Of a DNA stretch of 53,849 nt, positions 38,074 to 53,849 are shown in pieces. The notes under the pieces are model-generated. The model worked only from the letters and a program-made list of their open reading frames with translations. It searched no databases and had not been told where the DNA came from. Every line of letters starts with the position of its first letter. Within the stretch, counting starts at the first letter, position 1. The position numbers and the translations under genes were made by a program. This DNA comes from Planctomycetota bacterium (GTDB lineage: Bacteria > Planctomycetota > JAMOSO01). Location of the stretch: positions 1 to 53,849 of the forward strand of contig JAMOSO010000023.1 in NCBI GenBank assembly GCA_027063065.1. Direction: 5' to 3'.

Positions 38074-39223
38074 AAAGAAAGTTTGTGTTGTAGTAACAGC
38101 GCGACCTAGTTATTCGCGTATAAAAACGGCTCTTTTAGCCATAAAAAGCCACCCTAATTTAGAATTACAATTAGTTGTTGCAGGTTCGGCATTATTGGAT
38201 AGATATGGCGATGCAAGTAAGGTCATAGAGGCGGATGGATTTACGATTATCGAACGCGTTTATAATGTGTTGGAAGGTGAAAATCCTACAATAATGTCTA
38301 AGACTACGGGTATTGCTTTGATGGAATTATCAACGACATTTTATAATTTAAAACCAGATATGGTAGTTAGTATTGCCGATAGATTTGAAACTATAGCTAC
38401 TTCCATTGCTGCGGCATATCAGAATATCCCGCTTGTACATATTCAAGGCGGTGAAGTAACAGGAAATATAGATGAAAAAGTTCGCCATGCAAATACTAAA
38501 TTGGCAGATTTGCATTTGGTAGCTTCTGAAGATGCTTATAACAGGGTCTTAAAAATGGGTGAATATAAAAGTAGCATTATTAATACGGGTTGTCCATCTA
38601 TTGACTTAGCCAAAGATATTTTAAATGAGGATTCATCACAGTTTAACCCTTTTGATTGTTATCACGGTGTGGGTAAAATTAAAAATTGGCAGGATGGTTA
38701 TCTGGTTGGATTACAACATCCTGTTACAACGGAATTTGGTAAATCACGAGAACATATTGTGCATACATTGCAGGCGATAAAAGATTTGGATATACCAACT
38801 TTTTGGTTTTGGCCTAATGTAGATGCTGGTGCCGATGGTACATCAAAGGGGATTCGCGTGTTTAGAGAAGAAGAAAAACCAGATAATATTTATTTTTATA
38901 AAAATATGCAGCCGTTAGATTTTTTGCGTTTAATTAAAAATGCTAAATGTTTGGTTGGTAATTCTAGTGTAGGAATCAGAGAAAGTTCATTTTTGGGTGT
39001 ACCTGTTGTTAATATCGGCAGTAGGCAATCGGGCAGGTTGCGAGGTAAAAACGTTATGGATTGTGGGTATGATATTGCAGAGATTAAAAATAGTATTAAG
39101 CAACAGTTAAAGCATAAAAGTTATGAGTCTCAACATATATATGGCAATGGAATGGCTGGGCAAAAAATAGCTGAAGAATTAGCAAGATTTGAAGGACAAT
39201 CACATAAGGTTATAACTTATTAA
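38066..39223 (+). CDS. neuC: Hydrolysing UDP-HexNAc 2-epimerase, NeuC/LegG type
   Basis: A 385-residue GT-B-fold enzyme that turns UDP-GlcNAc (or a UDP-diacetamido-dideoxy relative) into free ManNAc (or its relative) for NeuB. Motifs: VCVVVTARPSYSRIKTAL at the start, VSIADRFETIATSIAA, VHIQGGEVTGNIDEKVRHA and CLVGNSSVGIRESSFLGVPVVNIG. GGGGGA lies upstream of the ATG at 38066, which overlaps neuB by 8 nt. Its stop overlaps the neuA start. The absence of an aminotransferase and acetyltransferase from the locus favours a Neu5Ac route over legionaminate, but those genes could be elsewhere. Confidence 0.92.
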   Translation: MTKKKVCVVVTARPSYSRIKTALLAIKSHPNLELQLVVAGSALLDRYGDASKVIEADGFTIIERVYNVLEGENPTIMSKTTGIALMELSTTFYNLKPDMVVSIADRFETIATSIAAAYQNIPLVHIQGGEVTGNIDEKVRHANTKLADLHLVASEDAYNRVLKMGEYKSSIINTGCPSIDLAKDILNEDSSQFNPFDCYHGVGKIKNWQDGYLVGLQHPVTTEFGKSREHIVHTLQAIKDLDIPTFWFWPNVDAGADGTSKGIRVFREEEKPDNIYFYKNMQPLDFLRLIKNAKCLVGNSSVGIRESSFLGVPVVNIGSRQSGRLRGKNVMDCGYDIAEIKNSIKQQLKHKSYESQHIYGNGMAGQKIAEELARFEGQSHKVITY

Positions 39224-39921
39224 TGAAAATTTTAACTATAATACCAGCACGAGGAGGTTCTCAGGGGGTTAAAGATAAAAACATTATTGATGTATGCGGT
39301 AAGCCATTGATTGCTTATTCTATTGAACAAGCCAATATGTTAAAAGAAGCTGGCTTAGTTGATACGGTAATTGTATCAACAGATTCTAAAAAAATAGCTA
39401 ATGTATCAAAGGATTACGGTGCAGAAGTACCTTTTTTACGTCCTGATGAATTGTCTTCTAATACTGCTAAATCAATCGATTTTTATTTGCACGCATTAGA
39501 TTTTTATGCCAGTCAAAATATATATTTTGATGCTGTGTTATTATTGCAACCAACATCGCCACAAAGAAATTTTAATATTTTAAAAGATAGCATTAATATT
39601 TTTACCAGTGGTAAAGCCGATAGTTTATTAAGCGTATATCGTGAAGAATATATTAACGATTTAGTAATGTATCGAGGGGATGAAAAGTCTAAATGTTTGA
39701 CCCCAGTAAATATTAATCATAATAAAGGGGTTCGTCGTCAAAATCATGGTTCTATTTTTGTTCGTAACGGTTCAATTTATTTAACTAACACAAGTTATAT
39801 TTTAGATAAAAAAATGATTATATGCGATAATCCTTTATTTGTAGAAATGAAAAAAAGTGATTCTATTAATATTGATACTTATGAGGATTTAACTTTGTTA
39901 AGGAAAGTATTATGCGTATAG
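39223..39921 (+). CDS. neuA: Acylneuraminate cytidylyltransferase (CMP-nonulosonate synthetase)
   Basis: NeuA activates the nonulosonic acid with CTP. The 232-residue protein shows the nucleotidyltransferase start LTIIPARGGSQGVKDKNI, GKPLIAYSI, VIVSTDSKKIA, AEVPFLRPDELS, LLLQPTSPQRN and the C-terminal SINIDTYEDL. Its start shares one base with the neuC stop, and its end overlaps the next gene by 10 nt, completing a neuB-neuC-neuA unit. Confidence 0.93.
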   Translation: MKILTIIPARGGSQGVKDKNIIDVCGKPLIAYSIEQANMLKEAGLVDTVIVSTDSKKIANVSKDYGAEVPFLRPDELSSNTAKSIDFYLHALDFYASQNIYFDAVLLLQPTSPQRNFNILKDSINIFTSGKADSLLSVYREEYINDLVMYRGDEKSKCLTPVNINHNKGVRRQNHGSIFVRNGSIYLTNTSYILDKKMIICDNPLFVEMKKSDSINIDTYEDLTLLRKVLCV

Positions 39922-40847
39922 GCGTATTGGAGTCTGAAGGTTATTCTTCAAAAGCTATAGATGTTTACTCTAAATTTGCAAAGATAGATTTTTTTAAAAA
40001 CGGTAATATTATTGATTTTATTGCCGACAAGGATGTCTTGGTCGTAAGACTAAAATATAAGTTAGATTCCAAAGTTTTGTTTTGTGCTAAAAATTTAAAA
40101 TTTATTTGTTCTCCAACGACAGGCCTAAATCATATTGATTTAGATTATACATCTGCCAATAAAATTGAGGTAATATCTTTAAAAAATGAAATAGCTTTTT
40201 TAAATACGATAAGAGCTACTCCAGAGCATAGTTTTGGTTTGTTGCTGTCATTGTTAAGAAATTATAAAAAAGCTTTTTTAAATACAGAAAACACTAATTG
40301 GGATAGAAATTTATATATAGGTACAGAATTGTATGCTAAAAAAGTTGCCATTGTAGGATTGGGTCGGGTCGGTAGTTTGTTGGCCAATTACTGTAGTGCT
40401 TTTGGGGCTAAGGTTAAATATTTTGATATTGATGCAAAAAAAACAAGTGCGGTTGCAACGCGTACTCCAAATTTGCAACAACTATTACATAACGCAGAAA
40501 TTGTATTTTTAACAGTTTCTTATAGCAGGAATAATCATCAATTTTTTAATGCAGAGATGATAGATTGTTTAGAAAATTGTTATTTTATCAATACTGCCAG
40601 GGCTGAATTGTTAGACGAAGAATATTTACTTGCAAAAGCTAAAAATAATTTTTTTGCGGGATTGGCTATTGATGTAATACAAGATGAAACTAATGAAAAT
40701 AACAGGTTAAAAGATTTTTTAGAATTAACTAAGAAAAATAATATTATAATTACTCCTCATATAGCAGGTGCAACATGGGAGTCAATGCGTAGAACAGAAG
40801 AATTTATAGCAGACAAATTAAATCAAAGGTTAAGGAGCTGTATATGA
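39912..40847 (+). CDS. NAD-dependent D-2-hydroxyacid dehydrogenase family protein
   Basis: A 311-residue dehydrogenase. The substrate domain (1-105 and 280-311) flanks the NAD domain, with VAIVGLGRVGS as GxGxxG and the acidic residue after strand 2 in KYFDID, which fits NAD use. The catalytic triad looks intact: R in NTARAELL, E in the IQDET segment, and H in TPHIAGAT. The closest well-known relatives are phosphoglycerate and glycerate dehydrogenases. Its place between neuA and a sulfotransferase suggests it makes or consumes a hydroxyacid used as a glycan substituent. AAGGAAAG precedes the ATG. Confidence 0.85.
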   Translation: MRIGVLESEGYSSKAIDVYSKFAKIDFFKNGNIIDFIADKDVLVVRLKYKLDSKVLFCAKNLKFICSPTTGLNHIDLDYTSANKIEVISLKNEIAFLNTIRATPEHSFGLLLSLLRNYKKAFLNTENTNWDRNLYIGTELYAKKVAIVGLGRVGSLLANYCSAFGAKVKYFDIDAKKTSAVATRTPNLQQLLHNAEIVFLTVSYSRNNHQFFNAEMIDCLENCYFINTARAELLDEEYLLAKAKNNFFAGLAIDVIQDETNENNRLKDFLELTKKNNIIITPHIAGATWESMRRTEEFIADKLNQRLRSCI

Positions 40848-41578
40848 TTGCTGTATATGGTAAGGTTAAAAGAAAAATACAAGAAAATTATTTTCCATTA
40901 GTTCAAGATGGTAATTCTTATCATGTGCGTTCTAAAAAGTTAATTAAGTCTTTTACATCGGACGATAATTTCCCATATTTGGTTAGTTTTCCAAGAACTG
41001 GCAGTCATTGGCTAAGGCAGTTAATGGAAATAGTGTTCGAAATCCCGTCATTAACCAGAATATTTTTTGAACCCAAAACGGATAAATTTACCTGTTATCA
41101 TGTACATGATGTTGGTTTAAACGAAAAAGCTAAAAGAGTGATTTATTTATACAGAAATCCAGTGGATACTATTTACTCGACCATGCAGTATCATAAAGAA
41201 GATATGAACGATAAAGTTAGGATTTCTTATTATACAGCATTATACGGTCAACATCTGGCAAAATGGTTAATCTTAGAGGACTTTTCAGAAGATAAATTAA
41301 TATTAACTTATGAGGGTTTAAAAGATGATATTTTTGGGCAATTCAAAAAGATAGCTAGTTTTTTAAATTTAAAAAGTGATGAAAGTAGGATAAAATTAGC
41401 ACAACAGAAGGTTTCAAAAAAATCACTTAGTGGGAAGGGTCTTTCTGATAAGCAAATTGTTAATATTTCTGAGGAGTACCAACAAATGAAAGAAGATTTT
41501 GTGGATAAATATTCCGATTTTATTTTGGAGCTTACTTTGGCTCAACATCCAGATATGATAAATATGGGGTTTAAATGA
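40844..41578 (+). CDS. PAPS-dependent sulfotransferase domain protein
   Basis: A 244-residue cytosolic-type sulfotransferase. The 5'-phosphosulfate loop is SFPRTGSHWL (48-57, equivalent to TYPKSGTTW), and the 3'-phosphate site is YRNPVDTIYS (103-112), with R104 and S112 as the expected contacts. VIYLYRNPVDT and the later LTYEGLKDD segment, followed by a helix with FLNLK, follow the Sulfotransfer_1 layout. It probably sulfates a sugar hydroxyl. AGGAG precedes the start; it overlaps the neighbours on both sides by 4 nt. No PAPS-synthesis genes are in the window. Confidence 0.87.
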   Translation: MIAVYGKVKRKIQENYFPLVQDGNSYHVRSKKLIKSFTSDDNFPYLVSFPRTGSHWLRQLMEIVFEIPSLTRIFFEPKTDKFTCYHVHDVGLNEKAKRVIYLYRNPVDTIYSTMQYHKEDMNDKVRISYYTALYGQHLAKWLILEDFSEDKLILTYEGLKDDIFGQFKKIASFLNLKSDESRIKLAQQKVSKKSLSGKGLSDKQIVNISEEYQQMKEDFVDKYSDFILELTLAQHPDMINMGFK

Positions 41579-42348
41579 AAGTTGTTATTTTAGCTGGTGG
41601 TTTTGGTACACGATTAAGCGAAGAAACTTCTACGGTACCAAAACCAATGGTTGAAATTGGTGGTAAGCCTATTATTTGGCATATTATGAAAAGTTATAGC
41701 ATATATGGCTTTAACGAGTTTATTATCTTGTTAGGTTATAAGGGCTATATGATTAAAGAATATTTTGCTAATTATTTTTTACATCAAAGCGATGTTACTA
41801 TAGATTTAGCTAATAATAATATGCAGGTGCATGACAATAGTAGTGAACCTTGGAAGGTTACTCTTTTAGAAACAGGTATCGATACTCAAACTGGTGGACG
41901 CATTTTAAAGGCAAAACCATATATAGGCGAAGAAAGTTTTATGCTTACTTATGGGGATGGTGTTTCAGATATTAATATTGTTGAGTTAATTAAATTTCAT
42001 AAAGCGCATGGAAAAATTGCTACGGTTAGTTCTATACAGCCAGATGGTAGATTTGGCACGATTTCTGCGAAAGACGGAGGTAGAATTGAATCTTTTAAAG
42101 AAAAACCAGTGGAAACTAATTTTTGGATCAATGCTGGTTTTTTTGTGTGCCATCCACAAATTTTTGATTATTTTGACAATTCTGATCAGCTTGTATTTGA
42201 AAAATCACCCATAGAAAATCTGGTTAAAGATGGTGAACTTTTTGCTTATAAACATACAGGTTTTTGGAAATGTATGGATACACTTAGAGATAAAACCAGT
42301 TTATGTGCTTTATGGGATTCAGGTAAAGCGCCGTGGAAAAAATGGTAA
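41575..42348 (+). CDS. rfbF: Glucose-1-phosphate cytidylyltransferase
   Basis: RfbF/DdhA makes CDP-glucose from glucose-1-phosphate and CTP, the entry to CDP-3,6-dideoxy and CDP-6-deoxy sugars. The 257-residue protein shows VILAGGFGTRLSEET, VPKPMVEIGGKPIIWHIM, the YGFNEFIILLGYKG segment, LTYGDGVSDI, GRFG, WINAGFFV and FWKCMDTLRDK, all characteristic of RfbF rather than the RmlA/UGPase branches. Its ATG overlaps the sulfotransferase stop as ATGA, and its end overlaps rfbG by 7 nt. Confidence 0.96.
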   Translation: MKVVILAGGFGTRLSEETSTVPKPMVEIGGKPIIWHIMKSYSIYGFNEFIILLGYKGYMIKEYFANYFLHQSDVTIDLANNNMQVHDNSSEPWKVTLLETGIDTQTGGRILKAKPYIGEESFMLTYGDGVSDINIVELIKFHKAHGKIATVSSIQPDGRFGTISAKDGGRIESFKEKPVETNFWINAGFFVCHPQIFDYFDNSDQLVFEKSPIENLVKDGELFAYKHTGFWKCMDTLRDKTSLCALWDSGKAPWKKW

Positions 42349-43442
42349 ATAATTTAGTAGATTTAAATCTGTTTGGTGGTGCCTATAAAAACACTCGTGT
42401 TTTAGTTACAGGAGATACAGGTTTTAAGGGCGCTTGGCTCGTTAAGTGGCTTGAAATGATGGGGGCAGATATATGTGGTTATGCACAAGACTATATATCT
42501 TTACCCAATCATCATAAATTGTTAAATCTAAAATATCATACTATTATAGCGGATGTTAATGATTTTGATTTTTTGTTAAAAACTATCGATGAATTTAAAC
42601 CACAAATTATTTTTCATTTAGCTGCACAAGCATTAGTAAGACAGTCTTATAAACAGCCTTTAACAACTTTTCAAACAAATATTATGGGTACAGCCAATAT
42701 TTTAGAGGCTTCTAGGCTTAGTAATTGTGTTAAGGCTGTCGTCAATATAACAAGTGATAAATGTTATCAAAACAATGAATGGGTTTGGGGTTATAAGGAA
42801 ACAGACGCTATGGGAGGCTTTGATCCTTATAGCGCTTCAAAGGGCTGTTCAGAATTAATAACATCATCTTATCGTAATGCTTTTGGTTCGGATGAATTTT
42901 TAATAGCTTCATGCAGGGCTGGAAATGTAATAGGTGGTGGGGACTGGGCAGAAGATAGATTGATTCCAGATATGATTAAAGCTTTGCAGTCTGGTAAAAC
43001 CACAATTATTAGAAGCCCACAATCTACTAGACCTTGGCAACATGTATTAGAACCATTAAGTGGTTATTTATTGGTTGGGCAAAAATTATTAGCAAGTCAA
43101 AAAAACTTTGCCGAAGGTTGGAATTTTGGACCATCTAGTTTGTCGCAAATTTCAGTGGCTAAGATTTCATCAATGCTTAAAGACTTATGGAATTTTAAAA
43201 TTGAATTTAAACCAGATTGCGATGCTCCACATGAGGCTTGCTTATTAAAATTGGATTGCGCCAAAGCCAATACTTTTTTGCATTGGTATCCTATTTGGGA
43301 TATTAACAAAACTTTGTCTGCTACGGTGCAATGGTATAAAACATATATGCAAGAAAATAAGATACTAACAGCTCAACAAATAGCTGATTATGTTGCAGAT
43401 GCTCGCAATTTAAAAATGACTTGGTGTTGCGATGAAGCTTAA
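42342..43442 (+). CDS. rfbG: CDP-glucose 4,6-dehydratase
   Basis: RfbG/DdhB converts CDP-glucose to CDP-4-keto-6-deoxyglucose. The 366-residue extended SDR has VLVTGDTGFKGAWL (Rossmann loop), FHLAAQALVRQSY, ITSDKCY, the YSASKGCSEL active-site motif, CRAGNVIGGGDWAEDR and QSTRPWQHVLEPLSGYL, which is the specific CDP-glucose dehydratase pattern. I chose the ATG at 42342, with GGA just upstream, over the GTG at 42333. It overlaps both neighbours by 7-11 nt. Confidence 0.96.
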   Translation: MVNNLVDLNLFGGAYKNTRVLVTGDTGFKGAWLVKWLEMMGADICGYAQDYISLPNHHKLLNLKYHTIIADVNDFDFLLKTIDEFKPQIIFHLAAQALVRQSYKQPLTTFQTNIMGTANILEASRLSNCVKAVVNITSDKCYQNNEWVWGYKETDAMGGFDPYSASKGCSELITSSYRNAFGSDEFLIASCRAGNVIGGGDWAEDRLIPDMIKALQSGKTTIIRSPQSTRPWQHVLEPLSGYLLVGQKLLASQKNFAEGWNFGPSSLSQISVAKISSMLKDLWNFKIEFKPDCDAPHEACLLKLDCAKANTFLHWYPIWDINKTLSATVQWYKTYMQENKILTAQQIADYVADARNLKMTWCCDEA

Positions 43443-43977
43443 TAAAACATTTTTGGAAGATGTTTTTATTTTAGAACCAGATTATTTTACAGATGAGCGA
43501 GGCGGATTTGCTAGATTGTATTGTCAACAAGAATTGTCTAAGTTTTATCCAGGACTAGAAATCAAGCAAATTAATCATTCTATTAATAGATTAGCGGGTA
43601 CAATTAGGGGGATGCATTTTCAATATCCACCCAACGATGAAATTAAATTTGTTAAATGTACCAAGGGCGCTGTATTAGATGTAGTAGTAGATATAAGAAA
43701 GGGTTCTAAAACATTTTTAAAATATTTGGCAGTAGAATTAACATCAAACAACAATAAAATGCTATGTATACCCAAGGGCGTGGCGCATGGGTTTCAAACG
43801 TTGCAAGACGATACTGAATTACTGTATTTACATTCGGCATTTTATACGCCAAATAATGAAGGTGGTTTAAACTTTGGTGATTCTAAATTAAATATTGATT
43901 GGGTTTTGCCTGTGCAAAATATTTCAGAACGTGATTTAAATTTTAAGATGTTAGAAGATTCTTTTAAGGGGATATAA
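43432..43977 (+). CDS. RmlC-like NDP-4-keto-6-deoxysugar 3,5-epimerase
   Basis: A 181-residue cupin of the dTDP-4-dehydrorhamnose 3,5-epimerase family. Marks are FTDERGGFARLY, NHSINRLAGTIRGMHFQYPP with the catalytic histidine, VLDVVVDIRKGS, IPKGVAHGFQTL and the late LNIDW segment. In this neighbourhood the substrate is most likely CDP-4-keto-6-deoxyglucose rather than dTDP sugar, and the epimerised 4-keto sugar would suit the C-methyltransferase downstream. It overlaps rfbG by 11 nt and the next ATG by one base (TAATG). Confidence 0.9.
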   Translation: MKLNKTFLEDVFILEPDYFTDERGGFARLYCQQELSKFYPGLEIKQINHSINRLAGTIRGMHFQYPPNDEIKFVKCTKGAVLDVVVDIRKGSKTFLKYLAVELTSNNNKMLCIPKGVAHGFQTLQDDTELLYLHSAFYTPNNEGGLNFGDSKLNIDWVLPVQNISERDLNFKMLEDSFKGI

Positions 43978-45194
43978 TGAGGTGTAGGTTTTGCAATAAT
44001 GACTTAAATTATGTTTTTGCAGATTTAAAAGAAGCACCTTTGTCTAATTCTTATTTAGATAAAGCAAGTTTATTGAAACAAGAAGAAAAGCTACCTTTAA
44101 AGATTTTTGTGTGTCAAAAATGTTGGTTGGTGCAAGTTGATGAAATGAAAAAGACTGAGGAAATTTTTGATAATTCTTATGCATATTTTAGTTCTATGTC
44201 ACAGTCGTGGTTGCAACATAGTCAAGAATATGTCTCGATGATAATAGATTATTTAAACCTAAATCAAGACTCGTTGGTTACAGAAATAGCCTCCAATGAC
44301 GGTTATTTATTACAATACATGCAACAAGCAGGTATACCGTGTTTTGGTATTGAGCCTACTTCAAGTACAGCCAATGTAGCTAAACAAAAAGGTATAAAAG
44401 TTGTTGAAGATTTTTTTGGTACACGTTTAGCTAATCAATTATTAGAGAGTGGCAAAGCAAGTGATTTGATTTTGGGAAATAATGTTTTAGCACACGTTCC
44501 TAATATTAAAGATTTTGTGCAAGGTTTAAAATTGTTATTAAAACCACAAGGCACTATAACTTTAGAGTTTCCTCATTTATTAAATTTAATCAAATATAAT
44601 CAATTTGATACTATATATCACGAGCATTTCTCTTATTTGTCTATATTAGCCGTTACACAAATATTTAATGCCTGTGGTTTGGATATATATAATGTCGAAA
44701 AATTGTCTACTCACGGTGGTTCTGTACGTATTTATGTATGTCATAAGAAAATCTTTGCACAAAATCCAAATGTTGCAGATATTATAGAAGAAGAAAAAAA
44801 CTTTGGTTTAAATACTTTGCAAACCTATTTAAAATTTCAAAATAAAATTGAAAAAGTAAAAAAGGATTTTTGCGATTTTTTAAATTTGCATAAAGATAAA
44901 AAAATAATTGCGTATGGAGCAGCAGCAAAGGGTAATACCTTGTTAAATTATTGTGAAGTTAAAGCAGATATCATTGATTTTGTTGTTGATAAAGCACCAT
45001 CTAAAATTAATAAATATTTGCCTGGTTCACATATCCCAATCGTAGAAGAAGAACAAATTTTAAAATTAAAACCAGATTATATTATTATTTTGCCATGGAA
45101 TATTTTTGACGAAATAACAGAACAATTAACTTATGCAAAACAATGGGGTGCTAAATTTGTATGTGCAATCCCCGAGATTAAAATTGAAGGATAA
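43977..45194 (+). CDS. NDP-4-ketosugar C-methyltransferase (NovU/TylC3/TcaB9 type)
   Basis: A 405-residue three-part SAM enzyme. An N-terminal zinc-binding domain has C3, C6, C46 and C49. The SAM-binding Rossmann core (about 85-250) has VTEIASNDGYLLQ, GNNVLAHVPN and TLEFPH, and the catalytic-type motif YHEHFSYLS (214-222) matches the Y-x-E-H motif of sugar C-3 methyltransferases. A second Rossmann-like C-terminal domain (about 308-400) has IIAYGAAAKGNTLLNY, FVVDKAP and YIIILPWN. Known relatives methylate C3 of NDP-4-keto-6-deoxyhexoses. With rfbF, rfbG and the epimerase it completes a likely CDP-3-C-methyl-6-deoxyhexose route. Note that the second domain reappears in four neighbours. Confidence 0.88.
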   Translation: MRCRFCNNDLNYVFADLKEAPLSNSYLDKASLLKQEEKLPLKIFVCQKCWLVQVDEMKKTEEIFDNSYAYFSSMSQSWLQHSQEYVSMIIDYLNLNQDSLVTEIASNDGYLLQYMQQAGIPCFGIEPTSSTANVAKQKGIKVVEDFFGTRLANQLLESGKASDLILGNNVLAHVPNIKDFVQGLKLLLKPQGTITLEFPHLLNLIKYNQFDTIYHEHFSYLSILAVTQIFNACGLDIYNVEKLSTHGGSVRIYVCHKKIFAQNPNVADIIEEEKNFGLNTLQTYLKFQNKIEKVKKDFCDFLNLHKDKKIIAYGAAAKGNTLLNYCEVKADIIDFVVDKAPSKINKYLPGSHIPIVEEEQILKLKPDYIIILPWNIFDEITEQLTYAKQWGAKFVCAIPEIKIEG

Positions 45195-45197
45195 ATT

Positions 45198-46235
45198 ATG
45201 ACAGCAAAGTATGAACCACGAATCACTTTAAAAGGTAGAACAAAGTTAGAGACGGTTATCCCTTTAGCAACCCCATTTATTATATTTGTAGACCCTTCTA
45301 GCAGTTGTAATTTTAAATGCACATTTTGCCCGACTGGCAATCCAGAAAGTTTAAAAAATACGGGCAGAGTTAATAAAATTTTAAATTTCGATTTATATAA
45401 AAAAATAGTGGATGATTTAGATCAATTTGCAGATCCTATTAAAGTTTTAAGATTGTACAAAGATGGTGAGCCGTTTTTAAACCCGCATTTAGCAGATATG
45501 GTTAAGTATGCAAAAAACTCTGGCAGAGTAGGCTTTATTGATACTACTACAAATGGTTCATTATTAACCCCAGAAAAAGTAATGCCTGTAATCGAGGCGG
45601 GTATCAATCAAATTAATATATCTTTAGACGGTATGAGTGATGAACAGTTTTTAGAATTTACACGTACTAAAGTAAATTTTAAGAAGTTTATTAAAAATAT
45701 AGAATATCTATATAAAAACAAGGGAGAGTGCAAAATATTAATTAAAACAGTCAATGAATTATTGAACGATAAAACACGTCAATTGTTTTTGGATACCTTT
45801 TCACCAATTGTCGATAAAATTTTTATCGAAAACATAGCTCCTTGTTGGCCTGATTTTGAATTAGAAAATTTAATGGATGTGGAAATTACAAAAGGCATTT
45901 ATGGGCAAGACATTAAAGAAATAGATGTATGCCCTTATGTTTTTTATCAGATTTCTATTAATGCAGACGGTAAAGCTAGTTTATGTTTTTTAGATTGGGG
46001 ACATAATTATATAGTTGGAGACACTAATACGCAAAGTTTAAAAGAAATTTGGCATTCAGATGAAATATATAATTATCAATATAAATTTCTTAAAGGTGAA
46101 CGTAAAAATGTGGAATTTTGTAAAGACTGTAGCCAATTATCACATTGTTTGCCCGATAATATAGATCCTTTTAAAGAAGACTTATTAAAAAAATTAATAG
46201 CTTCTAAACAAATGAGGCAAAACAATGAAAGCTAA
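45198..46235 (+). CDS. Radical SAM/SPASM protein, tandem paralog 1
   Basis: A 345-residue radical SAM enzyme with the [4Fe-4S] motif C37-x3-C41-x2-C44 (CNFKCTFC) and TTTNGSLL and NISLDG barrel strands. A C-terminal SPASM-type cysteine set follows: DVCPY, SLCFLDW, then FCKDCSQLSHC near residues 315-325, next to the GDTNTQSLKEIW element. SPASM proteins bind extra Fe-S clusters and modify peptides, sugars or cofactors. GAAGGA precedes the ATG. The downstream gene is a clear paralog and overlaps it by 11 nt. No RiPP precursor peptide is seen nearby, so a sugar or nucleotide-sugar substrate is more likely here. Confidence 0.88.
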   Translation: MTAKYEPRITLKGRTKLETVIPLATPFIIFVDPSSSCNFKCTFCPTGNPESLKNTGRVNKILNFDLYKKIVDDLDQFADPIKVLRLYKDGEPFLNPHLADMVKYAKNSGRVGFIDTTTNGSLLTPEKVMPVIEAGINQINISLDGMSDEQFLEFTRTKVNFKKFIKNIEYLYKNKGECKILIKTVNELLNDKTRQLFLDTFSPIVDKIFIENIAPCWPDFELENLMDVEITKGIYGQDIKEIDVCPYVFYQISINADGKASLCFLDWGHNYIVGDTNTQSLKEIWHSDEIYNYQYKFLKGERKNVEFCKDCSQLSHCLPDNIDPFKEDLLKKLIASKQMRQNNES

Positions 46236-47247
46236 AAAAGAATCTAAATTAAATTTAAAAGACAGGGTAGCATTGCAAGATGTTATCCCCATATCTACAC
46301 CATATTTGCTTTATTTAGATCCGTCTAGTGCATGTAATTTTCAATGTAAATTTTGTCCATCAGGACATAGCAATCTAGTTAAAGGTGCCAATTATAAGCG
46401 TTCTATTTTAGATTTTAATTTATTTAAAAAGATTATTGATTCTTTGGCAGAGTTTGATGAACCGATAAAAGTGATGCGGATGAATAAGATTGGTGAGCCA
46501 CTTTTAAATAAAGATATTGTCAAAATGATAAAGTACGCTAAAGATAGTGGTTATGTAAAGTATATTGATTTTGCTACTAACGGTTCTTTATTTGAGCAAT
46601 CGCTTATGGCTGATTTGGTTTCCGTTGGTTTAGATAGGTTAAATATATCTATAGAGGGCGTAGATAGTGCTCAATATAAAAACACTTGCAATGTGCAAAT
46701 AGACTTTGATGATTTAGTCGATAAAATTAAGTGGCTTTATGCGCATCGTCAAAACTGTGAAATTACAATTAAAATACCAAAAAATTATTTATCTAACCAT
46801 GATGAAGAAAAATTTTACAAATTATTTGGTGATTGTTGTGATAAAATTTTTGTAGAAAATTTATCGGCAATTTGGCCAGAATTTGATATGCAAGAATATG
46901 CAGGCATTCAAACCGCCGAAGAAAGTCAATATGGTCAAGAGTTAAAAGCCAAGGATGTGTGTACTTTTATATTTTATTCAATGGCTATAAATGCTGATGG
47001 TACTGTGAGTGCCTGCTGTCCAGATTGGGCGCAAAAATTAAAAGTAGGCGACACTAAAACTCAAAGCTTAAAAGAAATTTGGAACTCAACAGAGTTTAAT
47101 AACTTGCGGTTACAACACTTAAAATCACAACGTACTTTAAATACTGTGTGTAATGCCTGTGGACATATAAAATATTGTCAGGTAGATGATATCGATTTAT
47201 ATAAAGATAAATTATTAAATAAATTGGAACAACACATCAATGGATAA
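46225..47247 (+). CDS. Radical SAM/SPASM protein, tandem paralog 2
   Basis: A 340-residue paralog of the preceding protein, with co-linear sequence and the Fe-S cysteines at the same positions C37, C41 and C44 (CNFQCKFC). The shared start is LKDRVALQDVIPISTPYLL, and the shared end has GDTKTQSLKEIW. Its SPASM region keeps a double cysteine, ACCPDW, where paralog 1 has LCFLDW, then VCNACGHIKYC. The pair probably arose by tandem duplication and then specialised. GAGG precedes the start; its 3' end overlaps the methyltransferase gene by 8 nt. Confidence 0.88.
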   Translation: MKAKKESKLNLKDRVALQDVIPISTPYLLYLDPSSACNFQCKFCPSGHSNLVKGANYKRSILDFNLFKKIIDSLAEFDEPIKVMRMNKIGEPLLNKDIVKMIKYAKDSGYVKYIDFATNGSLFEQSLMADLVSVGLDRLNISIEGVDSAQYKNTCNVQIDFDDLVDKIKWLYAHRQNCEITIKIPKNYLSNHDEEKFYKLFGDCCDKIFVENLSAIWPEFDMQEYAGIQTAEESQYGQELKAKDVCTFIFYSMAINADGTVSACCPDWAQKLKVGDTKTQSLKEIWNSTEFNNLRLQHLKSQRTLNTVCNACGHIKYCQVDDIDLYKDKLLNKLEQHING

Positions 47248-48403
47248 TCAAAATAATAATTGTCATGCGTGTGGAATGCCTAAAACTCATTTATTTAATT
47301 GGTCATATTCTGGATTTGGAGATTCAATTTTTAATTATAAGGCCGAGTTTTATGACTGCAAACATTGTGGTTTAATATGTATTAATAATATTGATGATAT
47401 GATTTTGTCAAAATTTTATGCGGAAGAATGTAATTATTTTGCCAATGCACATTTTGATATTAATGCGAAAAAGAATATAGAAAAGTTTCAATATTATAAA
47501 AATTTATTGGTTGAAGTAGGTGTCAATAATTTACCAATTACAGATATAGGTTGTGGTCGAGGTGGCTTTATTACTTGGTTGATGCAAAACAATTGGCAGT
47601 CAAAGTGTTGTGGTGTAGATGTTGATGTAAAAAGTTTACCAGACAATACTAAAAACAGTCCAAAATTTATTAATGGTTTTGCTAAGGATTTACCTTTTGA
47701 GAATAACTCTCAAAAAGTTTTGACATACTTTCACGTCTTTGAACATATTGTAGATACAGATGCAATTTTACAAGAGGCATATAGGGTTCTTGACGAAGAT
47801 GGTATTATTGTTATCGAAGTGCCAGATGCACAAAATTATAGTAAAGAAAGTATTAATGGTGGTTTTTGGGTTAGCATTAGAGAGCATATATATCATTTTA
47901 CATTTAAATCTTTGGTTGAGTTGTTAAATAAAAATGGGTTTTCAATTTTAACAATTAAACAAGATAGATTGCCAACTCCAGAATTTGATTATCAATCTTT
48001 AATTGTTGTAGCATCAAAGCAAAAACAACAAAAGTATATTTTTAAAAATATTAAAATTGATAATTCTGGTTTTTTTATATCATCCCAAGAGGATATAAAA
48101 AATAGTGCCAATAAAATTGTTGATAGGTCTAAACAGTATGATTCGGTTGTCTTTTGGGGTGTTTCTAATCAATTATTAAGTATTTTGCCTATTTTAGAAC
48201 ATAAAATAAACTTTACACTTTGCGATGCCAGTGAGCAAAAACAAGCATTAAAATATAAAAACAAGTTAATTTTATCACCTAATGATATTGATTACTCTAA
48301 TTCTTTGCTTGTGGTATCTTCTTATTTGCATCGTCAGGCAATTAAATCTGCAGCAATTAAAATGGGTTGGGATGCTGGTTCTATAATAAACTTAGTGGAG
48401 TAA
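47240..48403 (+). CDS. Zinc-ribbon class I methyltransferase with C-terminal Rossmann-like domain
   Basis: A 387-residue protein. An N-terminal zinc ribbon has C8, C11, C40 and C43. The SAM core has ITDIGCGRGGFITWL (about 94-110), VFEHIVDTDAILQEAYRVL and IVIEVPDAQNY, typical Methyltransf_23/11. The C-terminal domain (about 295-385) starts VVFWGVSNQLLSILPIL and has a Rossmann-like rhythm. The three-part plan parallels the C-methyltransferase at 43977, but the core and the active-site region (IREHIYHFTF) are more distant, so the reaction may be O- or C-methylation. It is embedded between the radical SAM pair and the FkbM gene. Confidence 0.83.
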   Translation: MDNQNNNCHACGMPKTHLFNWSYSGFGDSIFNYKAEFYDCKHCGLICINNIDDMILSKFYAEECNYFANAHFDINAKKNIEKFQYYKNLLVEVGVNNLPITDIGCGRGGFITWLMQNNWQSKCCGVDVDVKSLPDNTKNSPKFINGFAKDLPFENNSQKVLTYFHVFEHIVDTDAILQEAYRVLDEDGIIVIEVPDAQNYSKESINGGFWVSIREHIYHFTFKSLVELLNKNGFSILTIKQDRLPTPEFDYQSLIVVASKQKQQKYIFKNIKIDNSGFFISSQEDIKNSANKIVDRSKQYDSVVFWGVSNQLLSILPILEHKINFTLCDASEQKQALKYKNKLILSPNDIDYSNSLLVVSSYLHRQAIKSAAIKMGWDAGSIINLVE

Positions 48404-48408
48404 ATAAA

Positions 48409-49518
48409 ATGGGCAATATAGATTATACATCGGTAAAAATAGACGAAATAGTAAAATCATTAGCTCCAAAAGCTAAATCTTTAGAAGATGATTTTGCCAA
48501 TGGGGTTGGCATATACGGTGCAGGTTTTTTGGGTACTTGGGCAGTAGATTATTTGCGTTCAATAGATGCAAAAATTAATTGCTTTATTGATAGAGATATC
48601 AATAAAAGTGACACATTTATTAAAAATATTAAAGTTATCACTCCAGATAAATTAAAGGAAAGTAGTGTTAAATCCATTTTTATTGCATCTCGTCATGTTG
48701 TCAAAGATGTAATAGATGATTTGGGTCAAGATAATTACAATATGATTTCCTTTGATGGTTATTTTATAGTAAAAAATTATCAACGTCTTTGTAAAATTAG
48801 AGATGGTCTATTGGAAGATGTAAAGTCTGTTGAGACATTTAATGCTATTTTATATTCAATGTTAACTAGTTCTTTGCAGAGTTGTTATGAAGTAATGGAA
48901 AAAGATATGTATTTTTCATTGCCTGAATTTAGTGGTACATTTGAAGAAACTTTTGTAGATGTGGGAGCTTTTGTTGGCGATTCGGTAGAAAGATTTATAT
49001 GGGAAAACTTAGGTACTTTTAGACATATACATGCTTTTGAACCAGGTAAACGACAATTCTTTGCTATGCAAAAAAGAGTAGAACGTCTTTCGTTAGAGTG
49101 GGCGTTTGATATGGATAAAGTCTCTTTAAATAATATTGGTTTATCTTCGCAAGAATCACAAATGAATTGTACTTTTGAGGATGACTTTCCTATACGCCAT
49201 GGATTAGTAGCTAGTGATGTTCAAGATGCAAATAAAAGTCAAAGCCTTGCTACTGTTTTAAGTTTAGATTCTTATTTAGGTGATAAAAAGGCAACATTTT
49301 TAAAAATAGATATTGAAGGTATGGAGATGGATTTTTTACGAGGAGCAGTAAAAACCATTACTGTCAATAAACCTAAGATAGCTATTTGCGTATATCATTA
49401 TCCAAGCGATTTATATGAAATTGCTGAATTTATTAAAGATTTAGTACCAGAATATAAATTTAAAATTCGTCAACATGCACCTATTTTTGGTGATTTTGTA
49501 TTATATTGTTATATATAG
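48409..49518 (+). CDS. FkbM methyltransferase with N-terminal Rossmann-like domain
   Basis: A 369-residue protein. The N-terminal part (about 24-110) is Rossmann-like: VGIYGAGFLGTWAVDYL, NCFIDRDINKSDTF, KVITPDKLKES, SIFIASRHVVKDVID. The C-terminal FkbM core has EETFVDVGAFVGDSVERF, HIHAFEPGKRQF, NNIGLSSQES and FLKIDIEGMEMDFLRGA. The N-terminal domain is equivalent in character to the C-terminal domains of the neighbouring methyltransferases, here placed in front. GGAG precedes the ATG at 48409, 5 bp after the previous stop; I rejected the longer start inside the previous gene. Confidence 0.86.
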   Translation: MGNIDYTSVKIDEIVKSLAPKAKSLEDDFANGVGIYGAGFLGTWAVDYLRSIDAKINCFIDRDINKSDTFIKNIKVITPDKLKESSVKSIFIASRHVVKDVIDDLGQDNYNMISFDGYFIVKNYQRLCKIRDGLLEDVKSVETFNAILYSMLTSSLQSCYEVMEKDMYFSLPEFSGTFEETFVDVGAFVGDSVERFIWENLGTFRHIHAFEPGKRQFFAMQKRVERLSLEWAFDMDKVSLNNIGLSSQESQMNCTFEDDFPIRHGLVASDVQDANKSQSLATVLSLDSYLGDKKATFLKIDIEGMEMDFLRGAVKTITVNKPKIAICVYHYPSDLYEIAEFIKDLVPEYKFKIRQHAPIFGDFVLYCYI

Positions 49519-49526
49519 GTATAGTT

Positions 49527-50684
49527 TTGTTTGATTATTGCCCTGTTTGTAAATCTAAAAGCTTTAAAGCGTTAGGCAAGTTAAATTTTGCTTTACCTGA
49601 CACTTATCCAATTGCTTCAAAACTTACTGTGTTACAATGTAATAAATGCGGTTTTGTAGGCAGTGATAGCTTAGCTAATAAAGATGATTATAATAATTAT
49701 TATAGACAGATAACTTATAGCTCTAACTATACAGCTTTTGATTTAGATGATGATGAGATACAATATTTGGATGAAACAATAGCAATAATACAAAAGCATA
49801 TTAATACTGATGATAAAATATTAGATATAGGTTGTGGTCTCTCGCATATTTTATCTGGTCTCAAAAATAATAAATATAAAAATTTATACGCATTAGATAT
49901 GTCAAAAGAGTGTGTTAATTACTTTAAAGACACCTATCAGATTGATGCCATAGTTGGGGCAGTAGATAATATCCCATGTAATATAAAGCCTGATTTTATT
50001 ATATTATCACATATTGTAGAGCATTTATTTGAGCTAGATAAACAATTACAATATTTGAAAGAACAATTATTAGAAGGTAAAAAAATATTTGTTGAAGTGC
50101 CAGACACGTCCAGATTTGAGGAGTTTGCTACTAACTTAGGTGAGCTTAGTTTTTTTTATTATACTCATTTATTGCATTTTGATGAGTTTCATTTGCAAAA
50201 TGTTTTTGAAGCGAATGGTTTTACCATGTTAGAAAGTGGCAAGCGAGTAAGGGTAGAAAAGTGTGTAAAAATCCCATCTATTTGGGCTGTTTTTAGCAAT
50301 GTTGATAAATATGTATTTAAGTGTAATTTTAATTTGGCAAATAAAATAGGCGTATGGTTTGATGATTTTGACTCTTATATATTTGATGATTTAGATAATT
50401 TGGTAAAAACTCAAAAACCTGTATATGTTTGGGGTATGGGTATGCATGCCCATTTTTTATTGGGTATGACTAAATTAAAAGATTGCAATATTGTGGCACT
50501 TTTAGATAAAAACCCAGATTTTAAAGGTACACATATTTGTGGTATGGAAATATTATCCAGCGATTTATTATATAATGCAACTGTAGATGATTGTGTTTTT
50601 ATTTGTGCGCAAGTTAACCAGTCTAGTATGCGATTTTATTTAACAGAAACAGTGGGTTTTAAGGGTGAAATTATAACCATATAA
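49527..50684 (+). CDS. Zinc-ribbon class I methyltransferase with C-terminal Rossmann-like domain
   Basis: About 385 residues. The N-terminal CPVC and CNKCG pairs form a zinc ribbon, then comes the SAM core KILDIGCGLSHILSGL, YALDMSKE, FIILSHIVEHLFELDKQ and IFVEVPDTS. The C-terminal domain begins VYVWGMGMHAHFLLGM and continues VALLDKNPDFKG, CGMEILSSDLL, VFICAQVN. I propose the TTG at 49527 as start: AGG sits 7 nt upstream, and no ATG occurs near the N-terminal cysteines. A further TTG at 49506 would overlap the FkbM gene by 13 nt. The plan is the same as the 47240 protein, so they are likely distant paralogs. Confidence 0.82.
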   Translation: MFDYCPVCKSKSFKALGKLNFALPDTYPIASKLTVLQCNKCGFVGSDSLANKDDYNNYYRQITYSSNYTAFDLDDDEIQYLDETIAIIQKHINTDDKILDIGCGLSHILSGLKNNKYKNLYALDMSKECVNYFKDTYQIDAIVGAVDNIPCNIKPDFIILSHIVEHLFELDKQLQYLKEQLLEGKKIFVEVPDTSRFEEFATNLGELSFFYYTHLLHFDEFHLQNVFEANGFTMLESGKRVRVEKCVKIPSIWAVFSNVDKYVFKCNFNLANKIGVWFDDFDSYIFDDLDNLVKTQKPVYVWGMGMHAHFLLGMTKLKDCNIVALLDKNPDFKGTHICGMEILSSDLLYNATVDDCVFICAQVNQSSMRFYLTETVGFKGEIITI

Positions 50685-50700
50685 TTATAAGAGGATTATT

Positions 50701-51432
50701 ATGAATGAAATACAACAGTTTAAACAAGAAGTAGCTCAAAATATTGAGTCTTTAGGTAAGGATAAAAAAAACAAAGAAAAGAGTATCGAATGGCTATGTC
50801 AAGTTAGTCAATATAATTACGCCTATAATTTTACATGGATGGGACGGCCAATTATTCAGGCTCCACAAGATTTGGTTGCCTTACAAGAAATAATTTATGA
50901 AGTTCAACCAGATTTAATTATTGAAACAGGGATTGCTCATGGTGGTTCACTCATATTTTATGCGTCTATGTTAGAGCTTATTGGCAAGGGAGAAGTTTTA
51001 GGTTTGGATATTGATATACGTAATCATAATTATGAAGAAATTATTAATCATCCGATGTACAAGCGAATAACCATGATAGAAGGTTCTAGCATAGATGAAA
51101 AAATAGCCGAAAAAGTTAAAACTTTTGCCAAGGGTAAAAAGAAAATATTAGTTAGTCTTGATTCTAATCATACCCATTCACATGTTTTAAAAGAATTACA
51201 GCTATATGCAGATTTGGTGTCTGTTGGTAGCTATTGTGTAGTGTTTGATACTTTGATTGAAGATATTCCAAAAGAGTTTTATGATGATAGAGAATGGGAG
51301 CCTAACAATAACCCAAAAACTGCTGTATGGGAGTTTTTAAAAGGGAATAAAAATTTTAAAATAGACAAGTCCATTGATTATAAAATTCAAATATCTGCTG
51401 CGCCAGATGGTTATTTAAAAAGGATACACTAG
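50701..51432 (+). CDS. CmcI-type (cephalosporin-hydroxylase family) SAM methyltransferase
   Basis: A 243-residue Rossmann-fold protein of the CmcI family, whose members in polysaccharide loci are thought to be sugar O-methyltransferases. Evidence: GRPIIQAPQDLVALQEIIYE, LIIETGIAHGGSLIFYASML (SAM loop), EVLGLDIDIR, and DSNHTHSHVLKELQLYADLVSVG with metal-binding-type D/H residues, then VVFDT. A good GAGG precedes the ATG. It is the last plus-strand gene before the convergent radical SAM gene, whose stop is 25 bp away. The antibiotic name of the family should not be read as function here. Confidence 0.85.
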   Translation: MNEIQQFKQEVAQNIESLGKDKKNKEKSIEWLCQVSQYNYAYNFTWMGRPIIQAPQDLVALQEIIYEVQPDLIIETGIAHGGSLIFYASMLELIGKGEVLGLDIDIRNHNYEEIINHPMYKRITMIEGSSIDEKIAEKVKTFAKGKKKILVSLDSNHTHSHVLKELQLYADLVSVGSYCVVFDTLIEDIPKEFYDDREWEPNNNPKTAVWEFLKGNKNFKIDKSIDYKIQISAAPDGYLKRIH

Positions 51433-51457: not shown

Positions 51458-53260
51458 TTAATTAAATAGGTCTATTATAGATATAATTTTAATATTTGGA
51501 TAACTACTTTCTATATTAGATTTGATAGTAGAATAAAAAACTGGCACTAGGACTATAATAGTATCGATATTCTTTTGATTAATAACTGATGGCGCATAAA
51601 CTTTTTTGTTATTAATATGCATTAATTGTTTGTCAGTAGAAAGATCAATTAAATAAATATCTTCGTTATTTTTAACACTATTAGATGTGGTTAAAAATTC
51701 CATTGAATAATCAGCCATTCCCCAAAGGGCAATTTTATTGCCATTTGCAATTAATTTATCTAAATGCGTATCAATTGAGTTTATAATCGATTTTGGAACT
51801 GTCGTTGCCAGCTTTTCTTTACAGTTATGACATGTTACATAATTTAAAGAAAATAGGCTTACTGATTGCCATGTGTTTTTTTGATTGCAGTATTGACAAT
51901 TTCCTTGTAAATCGCATTTGCCATTATTAATGGAAAGCAAAGTTGCATTATGTATTTTGGCATTTTCTTGTAATGGTAGCAAAGTTATTTTAGTTACTAA
52001 CTCGCCCATTTCTTTGTTGGACATTTTTGAAACATTTATTGGTGGGCAACCTTCTTTTAAAAATGTAACAGGATTTTTTATAATATTATTTTTAAGCGCA
52101 TATTTATATAAGCCAGTACCAGGATAAACTTTTATCATTTTCATAAATAGCCCATATCTTTGATTTTTTTTCCACCATTCAATGGTGTTATTTGCAGTTT
52201 GCGACGTTTCTGCAATATCACCAAATATAAAATTGCCTACTACGGGTATTTGTGCAGAATGTATTTTTTCTAGGGCGTTTTCAATTTGTTCGATAGTAAC
52301 GCGTTTGTTCATACTTTTAAGAACTGATGGATCAGCACTTTCAACACCTATGCCAATTGAAGCACAATTAGCATTTTTTAAAAGTTGTAATACCTGATCG
52401 TTAATTCCATCTACTCTAAATGATGCGTTCCATGGAATATTGTACGCTTTTATTCTACGGCAAAATTCATCTACTCTGTCAATGGATTGTGAAAACAGCT
52501 CATCAGATATATACAAAAAGCCAACATTATATTTTGATGTTAATAAATCAATTTCTTTAAAAACTTCATCCATAGAGCGTTGGCGGTATGTTCTGCCAGA
52601 AGTGTGAAAACAGAAAGTGCAGGCAAAAGGGCAAGAGCGACTAGTGATAATCATTCCAGCACGATTGCAATTTAAGCCGTTAGTGCCTATGTTAGATACC
52701 TCTAAAAATTCTTTAAAATTAAAACCATCATAATCTGGCCATGGAATTTCATCTATTTTTTTTATGGCACGTCGGCTTTTGGTTATTTCAAAATCATTTT
52801 TATTTTTAAATATTATTCCATTGACCTCAGTAAAATTTTTGGCTGCATTTATATACTGACATAATTCAACGGTGGTTTCTTCGCCTTCTCCAATAACGCC
52901 ATAATCCACTTCTAGAGCTAGCATAGCTGGTATTGGATCACCAGCAATTATGCCACCGCCACAAATAGAAATAATCTTGTTATTTGTTTTTTTGGCTATA
53001 TTAAAAATTTGTTTTATTTCGCTATATTGTGGGGACATTCCACCAGATAAAACCACGTCTATTTTTTTTTTAATAATAGTTTTTTGAAGAGTTGCCATAG
53101 GATTTGTATGATGATTTAAATTTAAAGTTTCAACATTTAATCCAGCCTTTTTCATCGCAGAAGATATATATAATATTCCTAGCGGAAGAATATAGCTTTC
53201 GTTGGCATTGCTTCTCATAAGAGGCATTACAATAAGGTGATTGTTAGTTTCTTTGGGCAT
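51458..53260 (-). CDS. Radical SAM protein with B12-binding-like N-terminus, zinc ribbon and C-terminal Rossmann-like domain
   Basis: A 600-residue multidomain enzyme. Residues about 8-165 form a B12-binding-like Rossmann domain (PLGILYISSAMKKAG, VVLSGGMSPQYSEIK, ICGGG, DYGVIGEGEETTVEL), without the DxHxxG motif that binds cobalamin in base-off form. Residues about 195-400 form the radical SAM barrel, with C210-x3-C214-x2-C217 (CPFACTFC). Residues about 449-480 carry cysteines C449, C455, C458, C477 and C480, a zinc-ribbon-like insert. Residues about 507-595 form a Rossmann-like domain starting IALWGMADYSMEFL. That tail resembles those of the neighbouring methyltransferases. AAGGA precedes the ATG. 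A C10/T10-type A run (53062-53071 on the plus strand as T10) encodes a lysine triplet. Confidence 0.85.
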   Translation of the reverse strand: MPKETNNHLIVMPLMRSNANESYILPLGILYISSAMKKAGLNVETLNLNHHTNPMATLQKTIIKKKIDVVLSGGMSPQYSEIKQIFNIAKKTNNKIISICGGGIIAGDPIPAMLALEVDYGVIGEGEETTVELCQYINAAKNFTEVNGIIFKNKNDFEITKSRRAIKKIDEIPWPDYDGFNFKEFLEVSNIGTNGLNCNRAGMIITSRSCPFACTFCFHTSGRTYRQRSMDEVFKEIDLLTSKYNVGFLYISDELFSQSIDRVDEFCRRIKAYNIPWNASFRVDGINDQVLQLLKNANCASIGIGVESADPSVLKSMNKRVTIEQIENALEKIHSAQIPVVGNFIFGDIAETSQTANNTIEWWKKNQRYGLFMKMIKVYPGTGLYKYALKNNIIKNPVTFLKEGCPPINVSKMSNKEMGELVTKITLLPLQENAKIHNATLLSINNGKCDLQGNCQYCNQKNTWQSVSLFSLNYVTCHNCKEKLATTVPKSIINSIDTHLDKLIANGNKIALWGMADYSMEFLTTSNSVKNNEDIYLIDLSTDKQLMHINNKKVYAPSVINQKNIDTIIVLVPVFYSTIKSNIESSYPNIKIISIIDLFN

Positions 53261-53389: not shown

Positions 53390-53849
53390 ATGAGAATAAT
53401 TAATAAAATAAAACGATTTTTGCGATTGTATTTGTTATTAGATAAACAACAGCGGGCAGTTAGCCGTTGGTTTGCCCATAAGGGCGATACAACATTGCGC
53501 TTAAATTATCAACTAGATAAAAATAGTGTGGTTTTTGATTTAGGTGGATATAAAGGTGATTTTGCTTATAAAATATACAATAGATATCATTGTATGATTT
53601 ATGTTTTTGAACCAGTAAAAAAGTTTTATGAAGAGATTAAAATAAGATTTGCAAATAATGAAAAAGTAAAAGTTTTTAATTTCGGTTTATCTAATACAAA
53701 TCAAATGATGCCAATAAATTTAGATGATGATGCTACATCTGTATATGCTGGCGATACAAAAAATAAAGAAGAAATAGAATTGCGCGATATAGATGCGTTT
53801 TTAAATGCAGAGAAAATAAGTCATATAGATTTGTTAAAAATCAATATAG
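53390..53849 (+). CDS. FkbM-family methyltransferase, 5' part
   Basis: An open frame from the ATG at 53390 (AGGA nine bases upstream) runs through the right edge with no stop, giving about 153 residues. It begins MRIINKIKRFLRLYLLLDKQ and contains the FkbM SAM core: SVVFDLGGYKGDFAYKI (about 47-63), MIYVFEPVKKFYEEI, VFNFGLSNTNQ, then DIDAFLNAEKISHIDLLKINI, where family members continue with EG. It is therefore a true gene cut by the window edge, the third FkbM in the window, and shows that the polysaccharide locus continues to the right. Confidence 0.88.
   Translation, partial: MRIINKIKRFLRLYLLLDKQQRAVSRWFAHKGDTTLRLNYQLDKNSVVFDLGGYKGDFAYKIYNRYHCMIYVFEPVKKFYEEIKIRFANNEKVKVFNFGLSNTNQMMPINLDDDATSVYAGDTKNKEEIELRDIDAFLNAEKISHIDLLKINI

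Follow-up and report, generated by a model that had tools for sequence, protein, structure and literature searches.

Paired radical SAM/SPASM proteins in a planctomycete surface-polysaccharide operon: a candidate cysteine switch between sugar epimerisation and oxidation

Keto-based epimerases and reductases account for much of the known diversity of nucleotide sugars, and to our knowledge the editing of sugars by radical C-H chemistry has been demonstrated mainly in antibiotic pathways. BtrN, the 2-deoxy-scyllo-inosamine dehydrogenase of butirosin biosynthesis (PDB 4M7S/4M7T), consists of a radical SAM barrel and one auxiliary cluster. DesII, a dTDP-4-amino-4,6-dideoxyglucose ammonia-lyase, likewise combines a radical SAM cluster with an auxiliary cluster and acts on a nucleotide deoxysugar. 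HygY and NeoN are radical SAM epimerases of aminoglycosides. In one account (PMC10991966), HygY is presented as a twitch epimerase in which mutation of one cysteine reportedly exposes dehydrogenase activity, and NeoN as an enzyme in which Cys249 passes hydrogen to the substrate radical. In the pig spirochaete Brachyspira hyodysenteriae, strains of reduced pathogenic potential are missing a plasmid block encoding a radical SAM protein, a glycosyltransferase, an NAD-epimerase and RfbC, for which a role in lipooligosaccharide synthesis or glycosylation, with an effect on colonisation, has been proposed in a paper that assigns the block no chemistry (PMC4267127). A literature search on radical SAM/SPASM proteins, nucleotide sugars and polysaccharides together yielded no paper matching four or more of the terms.

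The window analysed here is a stretch of 53,849 nucleotides from a Planctomycetota bacterium, which carries two radical SAM genes, rSAM_A and rSAM_B (A and B below), within a polysaccharide operon (Table 1). An earlier note on this DNA had described the genes as overlapping and co-linear, and this holds: the open reading frames, read directly from the window, share 11 bases, the proteins align co-linearly at 40-41% identity, and both score far over the Pfam cut-offs for PF04055 (Radical_SAM) and PF13186 (SPASM). The Fe-S cysteines at positions 37, 41 and 44 also stand as noted, as a CxxxCxxC motif in both proteins, and are invariant across all 133 aligned relatives. The view that the surroundings make nucleotide sugars was confirmed by Pfam and NCBIfam, which identify both polysaccharide and nucleotide-sugar genes. 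From 37069 to 51432 successive genes overlap or sit at most 16 bases apart, and farther upstream lie genes for glycosyltransferases, a Wzy-type ligase/polymerase, a polysaccharide-initiation protein and an ABC transporter. The nonulosonate set adjoins the CDP-glucose genes, and the same neighbours are found at locus L098. At its other end the operon is terminated by the B12-binding radical SAM gene on the opposite strand, relatives of which occur in 17 fetched loci (cluster c10). An FkbM methyltransferase gene (53390-53848) is cut off by the end of the contig, so the polysaccharide locus may extend past the window.

Table 1. Positions of the radical SAM pair, its key residues and the neighbouring operon genes in the window.
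Feature	Position	Strand	Basis
NeuB, NeuC and PseF/NeuA-like cytidylyltransferase in a row; sialic/legionaminic-type nonulosonate set	37069-39921		
Sulfotransferase-domain protein	40844-41578		PF00685
RfbF, glucose-1-phosphate cytidylyltransferase	41575-42348	+	TIGR02623, 391.8 bits (cut-off 300.25)
RfbG, CDP-glucose 4,6-dehydratase	42333-43442	+	TIGR02622, 466 bits (cut-off 278.45)
RfbC-like sugar 3,5-epimerase	43432-43977	+	TIGR01221, 149.7 bits (slightly below cut-off 155.75)
Sugar 3-C-methyltransferase, TylCIII/TcaB9 type	43977-45194	+	PF08421, PF13489 and PF08484; D-mycarose 3-C-methyltransferase, E 2e-67
rSAM_A, radical SAM/twitch-type SPASM protein, 345 aa; proposed sugar epimerase	45198-46235	+	Pfam; A group; BtrN-fold model
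Codons C37, C41 and C44 of A (CxxxCxxC), radical SAM cluster	45306-45329	+	Direct reading
Cys216 of A, non-cluster cysteine; proposed hydrogen-atom donor	45843-45845	+	Family-wide Cys pattern; loop after strand 207-211 of model
Twitch/SPASM region of A; auxiliary [4Fe-4S] ligands C245, C263, C308 and C311	45930-46130	+	Aligned with BtrN
rSAM_B, Cys-less paralog, 340 aa; proposed dehydrogenase-type radical SAM enzyme	46225-47247	+	Pfam; B clade; BtrN match
Ile216 of B, same position as Cys216 of A	46870-46872	+	Alignment
MT23a, class I methyltransferase, distant C-methyltransferase-like protein, directly 3' of B	47240-48403	+	Profile-profile match
FkbM-type methyltransferase, conserved with B and MT23a	48400-49518	+	PF05050
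MT23b, class I SAM methyltransferase	49506-50684	+	PF13489
CmcI/rhamnosyl O-methyltransferase-like protein	50701-51432	+	PF04989, 304 bits
B12-binding radical SAM protein	51458-53260	-	PF02310 and PF04055

AlphaFold models of A and B, built on alignments from which rows from plasmid records were left out, reached pLDDT values of 92.8 and 94.8, respectively. The best solved structural match of both was BtrN (Z 23.4 for A and 24.1 for B, with an rmsd of 2.6 Å over 239-240 of 246 residues). Among solved structures DesII ranked second for A (Z 21.1) and scored about 21 across both models; the RiPP enzymes SuiB, SkfB and EpeE, the last of which has a donor cysteine, were also among the matches. In the family profile the auxiliary ligands of A align with C169, C187, C232 and C235 of BtrN, the same four ligands in the same spacing (C-x17-C...CxxC), at an identity of about 17-20% and with roughly the first 20 residues of A and B, as well as their C-terminal helix, left unaligned. 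These four cysteines are invariant in both A and B among the 133 relatives and are the only invariant auxiliary cysteines, C317 being variable; the ligand set of the second auxiliary cluster of canonical seven-cysteine SPASM domains is absent from the aligned family. Since all seven cluster cysteines are invariant in the family, A and B should, judging from sequence, each carry a radical SAM cluster together with a single auxiliary cluster that has all its ligands.

The earlier note had set the auxiliary cysteines of the two proteins apart by the motifs LCFLDW in A and ACCPDW in B. The letters do differ, but the ligand sets do not, because the ligand cysteines are invariant in A and B alike. 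The motif contrast was therefore rejected as a ligand difference; it reflects a variable extra cysteine in B beside an invariant ligand. Position 264 (A numbering) is F in 73 of 74 A-type proteins, and among five B-type proteins it is C in four and A in one.

The most useful new fact is a cysteine outside the clusters that is invariant in A only. Cys216 is present in all 75 A-type proteins of the alignment of 133 relatives, and the residue is I or V in all five B-type proteins. Other paralogs have A, N, P, S, I, V or W, with one Cys-bearing exception (L098_11005), and second close paralogs beside A are without Cys216 at every locus except L098. The surrounding motif, E-N-x3-C/I-W-P-x-F, is otherwise largely conserved. 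In the model Cys216 lies in the loop immediately past the sixth barrel strand, and it is at that end of the strands that radical SAM barrels hold SAM and substrate. A conserved cysteine may serve other roles, but a non-cluster cysteine of this kind is also the feature that, by description, likens A to HygY and NeoN, together with the proposed sugar-type substrate. A has this feature and B lacks it; the extra invariant Cys216 also sets A apart from BtrN. The antibiotic setting of BtrN, HygY and NeoN differs from the surface-glycan loci of A. The dehydrogenase activity reportedly exposed by cysteine loss in HygY is the pattern suggested for A versus B. By analogy, we propose that Cys216 is a hydrogen donor and A a radical SAM sugar epimerase, and that B is a Cys-less, dehydrogenase-type paralog. 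Because invariant Cys216 is confined to A, epimerisation by A and oxidation by B are now favoured, which turns the pair into a sharp epimerase/dehydrogenase hypothesis. Among the reactions listed in the earlier note (epimerisation, dehydration, C-C bond formation), the first is thus kept for A, while the oxidation favoured for B was absent from that list.

The two proteins share a common predicted scaffold, a radical SAM barrel with one BtrN-like auxiliary [4Fe-4S] cluster, and diverged at a residue that would govern the fate of the substrate radical. In A, the 5'-deoxyadenosyl radical would abstract a hydrogen from one carbon of the sugar, and Cys216 would return one from the opposite face, resulting in a redox-neutral, effectively one-way epimerisation. 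In B, with Ile at 216, the substrate radical could not be quenched by a cysteine; the auxiliary cluster would instead accept the second electron and leave a ketone in place of the hydroxyl, the outcome known from BtrN. MT23a, encoded next to B, could then methylate this keto sugar at carbon. The fold, the ligand sets, the cysteine pattern across the family and the conserved gene context are observed; we infer both reactions, the role of Cys216 and the order of the steps, as well as the substrate, which would be a CDP-6-deoxyhexose or a glycosylated residue made from it. That A is a Cys216-donor sugar epimerase and B a Cys-less oxidising paralog, both acting on a sugar of the surface polysaccharide, is our best explanation, and we place it just short of an even chance.

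Regarding the methylation step, a profile-profile comparison matched MT23a, through most of its length, to a sugar 3-C-methyltransferase over 342 columns (probability 95.5), with PDB sugar 3-C-methyltransferases among its matches, and the B-MT23a-FkbM module recurs in two Nitrospira-family genomes (L064 and L141). Activation of the neighbouring carbon by a ketone from B, for an MT23a-like C-methyltransferase, is suggestive only, and the link to C-methylation is tentative, as only five sequences make up the B clade and no MT23a lies near the B genes of Brachyspira.

A-type genes recur in CDP-sugar and glycan loci across phyla. Over the 59 full-length A loci whose flanks are long, a GT4 glycosyltransferase is the most frequent kind of neighbour (43 loci), followed by RfbC (39), CmcI (37), RfbG (35), RfbF (34), NDP-sugar epimerase/reductase (31) and 3-C-methyltransferase (22). 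In one Rhizobiaceae-type family, RfbG is found in 7 of the 11 A-bearing genomes versus 50 of 247 genomes overall (hypergeometric p 0.0016). The remaining 4 of these 11, and 6 of 17 A-bearing genomes searched individually, gave no RfbG match, so the CDP-6-deoxyhexose route often accompanies A but is not obligatory, nor is a CDP-6-deoxyhexose an obligatory substrate. At four loci (L079, L086, L087 and L107) an A-type gene stands with CmcI, in some cases also with FkbM, in genomes that gave no RfbG match anywhere; all four A genes are flanked by one conserved gene set (c43-c51).

The order of genes in the window is nearly matched by that of two Nitrospira-family genomes, RfbF-RfbG-RfbC-CMT-epimerase-A-FkbM-B-MT23a-FkbM-CmcI-GT4. 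In two other Nitrospira-family genomes, which carry A alone, the stretch read shows neither B nor MT23a nor that FkbM gene. The window itself is without an NDP-sugar epimerase and GT4, which are adjacent on another contig of the same genome; this epimerase shares 42% identity with its L054 counterpart across 280 residues (E 2e-80). There, on contig C18 (L140:3480-6919), a GT2-epimerase-GT4 triple sits between unrelated genes, unlinked to the window. Its gene types are those usual beside A in other genomes.

These neighbours bear on the stage at which the sugar would be modified. A and B may act after transfer, on a lipid-linked or polymer-bound glycan, with the same chemistry, an alternative that is compatible with our best explanation and that we regard as possible, if rather doubtful. 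It would suit the predominance of GT4 beside A and the A-bearing genomes with no RfbG match, and NeoN is described as acting late, on neomycin C itself (PMC10991966). The frequency of RfbF, RfbG, RfbC and epimerase genes around A and the enrichment of RfbG in A genomes argue against it.

It is unlikely that A instead deoxygenates its substrate or eliminates a group from it, in the manner of DesII or AprD4, with Cys216 being structural or tuning the stability of the radical. DesII is indeed the solved structure that follows BtrN among the matches of A, and a radical enzyme could make deoxy sugars at loci that have no RfbH-type gene. However, genes of the DegT family, to which RfbH belongs, co-occur with A at some loci, BtrN fits the ligand spacing and the coverage better, and a strictly invariant extra cysteine restricted to one subfamily would be left without a reason. 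DesII is also longer than A and B, at about 460-480 residues, and the NCBIfam DesII equivalog (TIGR04426) gave B 34.5 bits against a cut-off of 450.

Scanning one genome per species gave 80 loci, most with A-type proteins at 50-59% identity. The hosts are Alpha-, Beta- and Gammaproteobacteria, Desulfobacterota-type bacteria, Nitrospira, a Prochlorococcus single-cell genome, Lachnospiraceae, a planctomycete, a Fibrobacteres MAG and a Methanoperedenaceae archaeal MAG; phage records yielded only short or weak matches. In the tree, B of the window groups, with starred support, with three genes of the Brachyspira plasmid pBHWA1 and a Nitrospira protein to which it is 61% identical. This B clade is small (five sequences), and the Nitrospira-family loci L064 and L141 are represented in it. 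Several tandem pairs elsewhere have second genes that fall into a separate clade, C. The A group is not strictly a clade in the reduced tree, where its monophyly is not rejected (p-AU 0.44). Some of the long branches in the full tree may be wrongly joined; groups B and C persist when the longest branches are removed.

Tandem or near pairs of this radical SAM family occur in several phyla and involve at least three different partner lineages, and further family members accompany A in 14 of the 75 A-containing loci. In the other 61, A has no second family member. This argues that pairs arose with different partners and that A needs no partner gene. Because the loci were sampled with A/B patterns, a rule that B always accompanies A would rest on few, biased cases. 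The pair had been suggested earlier to be a two-step or heteromeric enzyme; two steps are plausible, and the heteromer is unsupported. The gene overlap, the co-linearity and the recurrence of pairs in several phyla would fit one obligatory heteromeric enzyme, but this is very unlikely given the many loci with A alone, the varied partners, the gene that stands between A and B in the Nitrospira-family loci and the full set of cluster ligands in each protein.

That A and B are RiPP maturases with a precursor peptide encoded elsewhere is most improbable, since their SPASM domain and the RiPP enzymes among the structural matches are outweighed by maturase models that all stay under cut-off, an operon with no intergenic space, the lack of a convincing small-ORF family by A and the sugar genes all around. 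Neither A nor B exceeds the cut-off of any NCBIfam model: the best score of any listed model is 93 bits (B, TIGR04317, cut-off 380), and the sub-threshold matches are headed by a tungsten-cofactor maturase. The earlier note had seen no precursor peptide near the pair, and a search inside the window likewise found no small intergenic ORF within 2.5 kb. In relatives, small ORFs that recur near A are mostly antisense ORFs limited to few loci, or fragments of genes. Membership in a peptide-maturase family, named earlier as a finding that would speak against radical chemistry on a sugar, was thus not observed, and the sugar proposal is supported by the BtrN/DesII fold, the CDP-sugar and glycan loci and the lack of a maturase match. 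Action of A and B on a sugar of the surface polysaccharide, rather than on a peptide, is well supported.

Plasmid pBHWA1 of B. hyodysenteriae carries four relatives, one of the A type and three of the B type, that share 45-52% identity with A or B; they adjoin GT4, NAD-epimerase, rfbC and rfbF genes and have no C-methyltransferase relatives alongside. By position and similarity (52% identity to A, with Cys216 present), the radical SAM gene of the block missing from strains of reduced pathogenic potential is an A-type gene, and the other genes of the block are the usual partners of A. We tentatively suggest, with somewhat more doubt than assurance, that a widespread and previously uncharacterised radical SAM family uses radical chemistry directly on C-H bonds to make unusual sugars of bacterial surfaces, in modular sets of paralogs that combine a Cys-bearing epimerase with Cys-less oxidising proteins and that include the colonisation-linked genes of B. 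hyodysenteriae. If this is true across many phyla, lipopolysaccharide and capsule sugars of unassigned origin may be radical-made, and Cys216 offers a concrete single-residue hypothesis for a gene block tied to colonisation in swine dysentery. On the same plasmid, another SPASM radical SAM gene (L036:12078-13181) lies between rfbF and rfbC, the place that RfbG holds elsewhere.
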